NCBI GenBank assembly: GCA_964017065.1 | Contig: OZ024791.1 | Coordinates: 4,144,547 to 4,208,546 of the forward strand | Length of the DNA: 64,000 nucleotides | Direction of reading: 5' to 3' | Source of the DNA: Haliclona indistincta | Taxonomy: Eukaryota > Porifera > Demospongiae > Haplosclerida > Chalinidae | Shown here: positions 22,832 through 24,862 of the stretch, in pieces | Layout of the letters: each line of letters starts with the position of its first letter | How positions within the stretch are numbered: position 1 is the stretch's first letter | The notes under the pieces: generated by a model | Told to the model about the DNA's origin: nothing | The model's input: only the letters and a program-made list of their open reading frames with translations | The model's database searches: none | Translations under genes and position numbers: made by a program

Positions 22832-22995
22832 AGTGGGTGGGTAGTCTCGTCCCCAGACCACGCCTTCTTCCGCTAAGCTCGAAGTAGGGTCTGGTTGCAC
22901 GAAGGCCAAATCTTGGGTCAATGACGTAATTGTCACGCGCACAATCACATGTGAATTCTAATTTCTCCGCGGGAAAGCTGCGCGAAATATTGAGT

Positions 22996-23155
22996 ATGGC
23001 AGAGTCTTGCTATGTCTGTGGAGAATCTCTGCTTCCTAATAGTGGTAGAAGAGTGATGAGCGATCAGCTAAAGAGTTTTCTTCGCCTGGAAGTTTCATCG
23101 GGACATATTTAGAAGCTGCTTGTGAAGCCTGTGTTGAACATGTAGAATACTAGTG
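22996..23155 (+). pseudogene. Broken open frame with paired CxxC motifs inside the TIR element
   Basis: ATG at 22996 opens a frame reading AESCYVCGESLL, then GRRVMSDQLKSF, stopping at 23110-23112. In the next frame the same strand continues TYLEAACEACVEHVEY before a stop near 23153. Joining the two by one base shift would put CxxC and CxxC about 45 residues apart, like a zinc-binding N-terminus; this is inference. It overlaps the 3' end of the helicase gene on the other strand. It could be the remnant first exon of an element-encoded protein. Confidence 0.45.
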
Positions 23156-24561
23156 TCATGGTCAGCATCAAAACTGACAAGTTCAGGGACAAGCTCTTCA
23201 GGAATACTCTCTGTTGTCTTGCAATCAACACAAGTACATTGGTTGGCACAGATATCACAACACGCATGGAGAGGTGATGGCTTGGCAATCTCCGAATTGT
23301 CGGTGAAAACTGCCATAAGCACTTCCCTTCTACATTTAGATGAATTCTTACAATAATCTTTCATTGTACCACTGCACGTTAGCCTTTTGTAATATAATTC
23401 AGCATTGCATAGCTTTCCATCTCTTCCTCCTCTTCCTGTTTCCTGAACATACATCACAATCTTGTCTGGTGCACCCCAATGAATAATCTTGCGCACATTT
23501 GGGCTATCTAGGCCCATCCCAAAAGCGATGGTGGCAACAACAACTCTCACTACACCATCAACTTGAGTAAATGACTTAAAAATATGTTGTTGATTGTCAG
23601 TTGCTGTAGAGCCATCATATTTTTCACACATTCTAAGTTTATTCATGGGGATGCAATCTGATGGAGGAGCATATAAGGCATCCCGTCTACCGAGACAGCA
23701 TACAAGACCCTTAAATACTTCTAGAGTATCCACATAAGTTCTACAAAATATGATCGTTCTAATACCATTTGAACTTAGGTCATCGACTATTGGTAGAATT
23801 ATATCATCAAAGCATCCCTGCTTGAGTACACTATATACTTGATATTAATTTTGTTAGGATCTCGTATCACTAAGTAGCAGCCATTCATATCAAGGGTAGA
23901 TAATATAACTCGCCTCATTGTTACCGTAGCTGTTGCTGTCAGAGCCATTATCCTGGTGGATTTAGGAATAAGGGAACGAACTTCACTTATGTTAGCAAAC
24001 TCAACACAAAACCTTTCTCCCCTGTGAGTATATGCGTAATGTGTAACATTACATGTGCAAAATCTATTATAGTTACCATGTTTCAACACAATGCGCTTCA
24101 TCTACTATGACCCCAACTAAGTTATTCTGATAAACTTCCTTCCTAAGCATTTCTCTCCACCTCAGCTCAGTTAAGAGAACTTCTGGGCTAAGAAAAATGA
24201 TCTGGTATTCACCAGCAAGCACAGCCTGTACTAACTCATCATTGCATCTATCCCCTTGGCTGAGGTACACGCATTTAAGGCCAAGCCCAGATGCCTTGGC
24301 TACTTGATCCTCCATTAAACTCTTTAAAGGCGAAACGACTATAACTATACTAGAATTACTGTTACGAAGAAGATTAAAGGTGAAAGGTAGAAGAAGATAA
24401 CAGAGAGACTTTCCGGCACCCGTCGGGAGAGAGACAAACACATCACGCCCAGACACAAAATTGACAACCACTTCTTGCTGTTCGGGCGACAAACATGAGT
24501 AGCCTAGCTGTTCAGCGCTCTTGACTATGGACGATAGAATAACACTCTTGGAGTAAGCCAT
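23095..24561 (-). pseudogene. RecQ-type ATP-dependent DNA helicase, frameshifted
   Basis: Start chosen at Met 24561 (MAYSKSVILSS). Exon 1 24561-24077, intron 24076-24022 (GT-AG, 55 bp), exon 2 from 24021. SF2 RecQ motifs in order: motif 0 YSCLSPEQQ, Walker A LPTGAGKS, DEAH (VDEAHCV), TATAT (motif III), the IAFGMGLD motif and arginine-finger motif VI QETGRGGRDG, followed by Cys residues (CRREV, CCDIC) like the RecQ zinc module. No HRDC domain is seen. Near 23815-23832, after YIVYS, the frame must shift by one base to continue CFDDIILPIV, so this copy looks inactive, or the assembly has an error. The C-terminus is short (ends LLNMSR). Its position between TIRs marks it as element cargo. Confidence 0.8.
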
Positions 24562-24862
24562 GTTTAGTGGGAGGTAGTAGTGAAGGTAGGCGCGGCCGCG
24601 CGTGCAAGTCATGTGAATTTATTAAAATACTGTAATCTGATTGGTATTCCCAGATTCAGAGAATGAAACGTCATTGACCCAAGATTTGGCCTTCGTGCAA
24701 CCATGGTGCAACCAGACCCTACTTCGAGCTTAGCGGAAGAAGGCGTGGTCTGGGGCCGAGACTAGTGGGTGGGTTGCCTTGTGACAACAGGAAGGTCAGT
24801 GCTTTACACACCTTGTGTCCTAAACCAAGGACTATTAGATAGCTACATATGTAGCCATTATA

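Follow-up and report, generated by a model that had tools for sequence, protein, structure and literature searches.

An internally deleted DNA transposon with a RecQ helicase gene in the sponge Haliclona indistincta

The DNA analysed here is a 64,000-nucleotide stretch (the window) of the genome of the sponge Haliclona indistincta (assembly GCA_964017065.1, contig OZ024791.1, positions 4,144,547 to 4,208,546 of the forward strand). It contains a mobile element of 1,923 bp at 22842-24764, with ends TAGTCTCG..CGAGACTA and a boundary set by comparing 11 copies, in which the remains of a RecQ helicase gene and of a DUF6589 gene face each other. With good confidence, this window copy belongs to a cut-and-paste transposon family as a non-autonomous member with an internal deletion; the full-length form encodes a likely DDE transposase together with the RecQ helicase, and the family is most likely AcademH. 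The left terminal inverted repeat (22842-22927, plus strand, beginning TAGTCTCGTCCCC) measures 86 bp and the right one (24668-24764, minus strand, finishing with CGAGACTA) 97 bp, so that the inverted ends of 85-95 bp described in an earlier reading of the sequence (the initial annotation) are real; their complementarity extends over 64 nt at 95% and 36 nt at 100%. The right arm owes its greater length to an 11-bp insertion in the window copy, at about 24695-24706, which is absent from nine of the ten other copies of this short form; the tenth, L019, has 56 bp inserted at this position. The initial annotation had called for a genome-wide search for the end sequence. In the 144-Mb assembly (46 contigs) the identical 86-bp end was found in many copies, at 28 or more places with 100% identity, a recurrence that excludes inverted ends arising by chance; each whole-genome DNA search scored its best 40 candidates, so all copy counts given here are lower bounds. 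A similar single end also occurs at four further places, counted as C4:5189958, C4:9356245, C5:13673098 and the truncated copies. The window copy is flanked by GTGGGTGGG, a 9-bp target-site duplication (22833-22841 and 24765-24773). An 11-bp direct repeat, initially taken as the target duplication, does exist, but copy comparison gives 9 bp; of the two surplus bases on each side, one is from the end of the element and the other from the flank, and both match by chance.

Inside the window copy, the RecQ helicase gene lies on the minus strand in two exons. They are separated, as the initial annotation had it, by a spliceosomal-type intron; this GT-AG intron measures 55 bp (24022-24076, GTAACT..CACAG), and on both sides of it the frames are open in full-length copies. 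Exon 1 (24077-24561) starts with an ATG at 24561 and encodes a Walker A motif (PTGAGKS) and a DEAH box. Exon 2 (23110-24021) carries two defects additional to the earlier description: a +2-bp frameshift near 23835, and a 3' end shortened by an internal deletion that removed ~66 terminal residues. The convergent CxxC frame reported earlier is likewise present on the plus strand (22996-23112, ATG at 22996, 38 codons, MAESCYVCGESLLPN..VSSGH); it starts MAESCYVCGES, retains the first CxxC pair, and in the 5.37-kb copies described below runs on in the same frame as LYLCKTCYSK, the second pair having been lost from the window copy through the same deletion. This frame is the truncated first exon of the DUF6589 gene, the likely transposase gene. 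The deletion junction (23109-23110) is the same in all 11 short copies, and the 3,441 bp missing correspond to positions 269-3709 of full-length copy eC6, with a base or two of uncertainty. The window copy encodes neither protein intact, since its helicase frame is both shifted by 2 bp and shortened and its DUF6589 gene is mostly deleted.

Longer copies with the same ends had been proposed as the place to look for a transposase beside the helicase. Two full-length copies of 5,373 and 5,370 bp were found (C9:313053-318425 and C6:9612937-9618306; 99.5% identical), flanked by CCTCATAAG and ATTTCAGAT, respectively. On the plus strand, both contain a gene of several exons, of which the first is the extended CxxC frame of the window and later ones match Pfam DUF6589 with 35.6 and 108.3 bits, against a cut-off of 27. 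The helicase gene is convergent with it, tail to tail, and its second exon has a frame of 398 codons, longer at the 3' end than that of the window copy. A third copy with DUF6589 exons (C6:11365505) has its left end cut and is partly masked. Because these same-ended longer copies carry a likely transposase gene beside the helicase, they support one of two possibilities offered earlier, in which the window copy belongs, as a deleted member, to a family encoding its own helicase.

The DUF6589 protein is likely a DDE-type transposase with an N-terminal CxxC/CxxC module, to judge from a structural model and residue conservation: the solved folds closest to a modelled relative are the P element and hAT (Hermes) DDE transposases, and this relative conserves acidic residues fitting D/D/E. 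Among five exon pieces (searched by hmmscan at E up to 1) and nine DUF6589 relatives (E up to 0.1), no MULE, hAT or P-element domain was found, and Pfam cut-offs were passed only by DUF6589 and, in one relative, by zf-AD. Named relatives come from sponges (Ephydatia, Halichondria and Amphimedon), hemichordates and Hydractinia. Contig collections of bacteria and archaea and of viruses gave no confirmed relative, which is weak evidence of absence because each was searched with two short peptide patterns; the Pfam DUF6589 profile had matches in 0 of 14 prokaryote control genomes. One DUF6589 protein, P0038, is filed under uncultured Candidatus Thioglobus; given that the bacterial collection yielded no confirmed relative, it may come from host sequence that was binned with a symbiont. 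The term 'DUF6589' was absent from the open-licence PMC papers searched, and 'PF20231' retrieved only an unrelated physics paper from them.

The helicase, on its domains and structural matches, is a member of the RecQ family. DEAD and Helicase_C domains score above their Pfam cut-offs; RecQ_Zn_bind reaches 23.5 bits, slightly below its 25-bit cut-off, and exceeds that cut-off in relatives P0154 and P0160. Among solved structures in the PDB, E. coli RecQ is the best match (E 2.9e-45), followed by another RecQ and BLM (3.2e-43). A phylogenetic tree was built from the element's helicase, 19 of its 42 closest matches and 21 of 78 more distant ones, the last comprising two proteins named bloom syndrome protein alongside sequences of bacterial, archaeal, fungal or protist origin and some without a name. 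A split with support of 100/100 separates 20 transposon-linked-type proteins, the element's helicase among them, from the 21 cellular-type RecQs. The initial annotation had suggested a tree with host BLM, WRN and RECQL proteins; the one built places the helicase with transposon-linked RecQs. WRN, RECQL4, RECQ5 and the host's own RecQ genes are outside it, those human proteins having been compared by the PDB search only.

The two genes recur together elsewhere in the genome. The helicase search yielded 60 loci among the matches listed (98 rows, from the best 80 of 625 candidates), and pairing was counted with each helicase locus entered once (60 of the 98 rows). Of the listed RecQ-related loci, 39 are outside the element's family, and 35 of these have a DUF6589 match within 5 kb; all 35 pairs are tail to tail, with 163-823 bp between the matched stretches in 33 of them, though they are not independent, 15 being near-identical copies of one family and five of another. 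The paired helicases of these other families are 32-44% identical to that of the element. DUF6589 matches number 112 in the genome and merge to 75 loci, 38 of which have a listed helicase within 5 kb. Another family accounts for fifteen DUF6589 loci, each a 103.2-bit copy with a convergent RecQ match at a distance of 363-364 bp; judging from this arrangement, both genes seem to have been present as that second family spread. In other genomes, five of the 42 close helicase relatives agree with a DUF6589 protein in source and in the exact length of the longest contig, and putatively lie on one contig with it; among the controls, one of 77 more distant RecQs agrees with a DUF6589 protein in that length, and its source differs. 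This comparison used the 120 listed of 292 DUF6589 matches plus 23 further rows with a contig, and one of the 78 controls was dropped for having no contig. The helicase and DUF6589 trees are compatible in how they group the five pairs and the element, one fork having support of only 90/90. Taken from sequence comparison, the association of the helicase with the DUF6589 gene looks like long co-inheritance rather than a one-off capture.

The other possibility raised initially was that a non-autonomous transposon took up a host RecQ gene once and was then amplified. The window alone would suit it, having only a helicase and a small frame between the ends, as would the 18 of 21 helicase places of the element's own family with no DUF6589 match within 5 kb (three have one). 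Capture was nevertheless rejected on account of the full-length copies, which hold both genes, of the genome-wide pairing, with the same convergent pair at 35 of 39 listed relatives of other families, even where the helicases are only 32-44% identical to the element's, and of the tree, in which the helicase clade stands apart from the 21 cellular-type RecQs; we regard it as very improbable. The helicase looks, on these comparisons, to be a regular part of the transposon. The initial annotation had held that ends unique to this locus, or other copies of the ends without a helicase, would point to a one-off capture. Neither is the case: the ends recur, and all 18 two-ended copies that were examined contain helicase sequence. 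An exon of a different SF2/RecQ-like helicase, with a 157-aa open frame (PTGSGKS, DEAH), occurs at seven places with one identical score (C6:6888572, C3:5418217, C4:5184712 (L077), C5:2823276, C7:2684168, C7:3609055 and C8:4035307). None of the seven is near a listed DUF6589 match, and they perhaps represent helicase-bearing elements of another kind.

At least 11 copies of the ~1.92-kb form were found, the window copy included. Five of them (L010-L014) show zero substitutions among themselves in aligned columns, L010 being set apart from L011-L014 by a single 2-bp indel, and they occupy five sites that differ in their flanking bases, each copy having a 9-bp duplication of its own; we infer that these five spread recently. 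Both helicase exons are open in four of the 11 short copies (L011-L014), and the helicase frame is broken in the other seven, including the window copy. Further deletion junctions occur in other copies near 385/3688, 458/3842, 202/3851, 253/3205 and 443/3929 (full-length coordinates), and all six junctions found remove most of the DUF6589 gene and spare helicase sequence, a pattern that is not readable as selection because the main search query carried the helicase. Both ends are readable in 18 copies: 11 of them have a perfect 9-bp target duplication, six have one of 8 bp and one copy has none; truncated or masked-end copies (C10:494889, C5:13684476 and C6:11363269) were excluded from this count. 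A further element at C5:4370399-4372546 has a deletion junction nearly that of the 1.92-kb form, rearranged helicase sequence and an 8-bp duplication. About a dozen elements of 0.5-0.6 kb (e.g., C5:12379026-12379592, C3:11017272-11017874 and C5:13161018-13161630), whose two sides match the first ~120 bases and the last ~470 bases of the element at ~68-85% identity, are apparently its older miniature relatives.

In the mechanism proposed here, the transposase would bind the ~86-bp ends, excise the element and insert it with a 9-bp, sometimes 8-bp, stagger. The RecQ protein would unwind or process DNA, whether at the cut ends, in the gapped insertion or while the gap left by excision is repaired. 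Short copies would have arisen through incomplete gap repair, which would explain the several internal deletions, and would be mobilised by transposase from full-length copies elsewhere, which would explain the spread of a form that encodes none. Alternatively, transposase-less copies might be kept because their helicase aids their movement, making them helicase-supplying satellites and not just deletion products. All six deletion junctions, and the four short copies with both exons open, fit such a role; the seven broken frames do not, the helicase-bearing query favours helicase-bearing copies, and a requirement for subterminal sequence in cis would yield the same pattern, leaving the satellite role improbable.

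Transposons of the cut-and-paste kind were initially said not to carry RecQ as a standard feature, a view that is out of date, as helicases have been published for the lineages AcademH and KolobokH. AcademH, of the Academ superfamily, is helicase-encoding and found in animals and fungi, according to the title of Kojima 2020; in a later paper (PMC10045372), its target duplications are given as 9 or 10 bp, against 3 or 4 bp in AcademX, a difference that the author of the later paper relates to the helicase and nuclease. The element resembles this description in encoding a helicase with a DUF6589 protein, the putative transposase, in two 5.37-kb copies. Membership of this AcademH lineage is most likely. 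A search of the open-licence PMC literature for Academ with Porifera and transposase gave a single paper, on Tc1/mariner.

Several observations weigh against the reading of the element as a deleted AcademH transposon with a DDE transposase and its own helicase. The 8-bp duplications in six of 18 copies depart from the 9 or 10 bp given for AcademH in PMC10045372. A plain Foldseek search returned nothing under E 0.001. Among the matches listed (the best 80 of 625 candidates), no helicase lies within 5 kb of 37 of the 75 DUF6589 loci, so that the number truly without one may be smaller.

Other known systems share single features with the element. Kolobok elements make TTAA target duplications. 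None of the element's 17 duplications is TTAA, all being 8-9 bp and of varied sequence, so that assignment to a RecQ-carrying Kolobok (of the KolobokH or Kolobok-1_CCri type) is hardly credible. Its attraction is that such lineages exist as DDE transposons with a RecQ helicase, encoded on the complementary strand in Kolobok-1_CCri (PMC9587614). The P element and hAT (Hermes) provide the nearest solved folds to the DUF6589 model; the element's proteins lack Pfam hAT and P-element domains by hmmscan, and only the fold is common. To our knowledge, neither P elements nor hAT elements carry a helicase. Mutator/MULE elements typically have long inverted ends and 9-bp duplications. The element has these too; it differs in having no Pfam MULE-type transposase domain by hmmscan and in having a helicase gene.

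The DUF6589/RecQ transposons might instead form a superfamily of their own, outside Academ and resembling AcademH in the helicase and the ~9-bp duplications. Their transposase passes no Pfam cut-off except that of DUF6589, their duplications are 8-9 bp as against the 9-10 bp described for AcademH, and their two genes are convergent, a layout that may set them apart from AcademH. The combination of a helicase and ~9-bp duplications in an animal DNA transposon is, on the other hand, what the published description of AcademH gives (title of Kojima 2020; PMC10045372), and a separate superfamily is accordingly rather unlikely, if worth keeping in mind. A more elaborate form of the idea is slightly more doubtful: in such a superfamily RecQ would be the regular tail-to-tail partner of a P/hAT-fold transposase, the helicase would act in transposition or copy restoration, and transposase-less copies would be helicase-retaining satellites.

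With the element read as a deleted member of a helicase-encoding family, most likely AcademH, an apparent gene capture becomes a clear case of a transposon with its own RecQ helicase, the pair being present at 38 loci in one genome. Pfam DUF6589, a family of unknown function, gains a likely role as a DDE transposase. The family has probably been spreading recently in this sponge, and the part played by the helicase in cut-and-paste transposition could be tested there.
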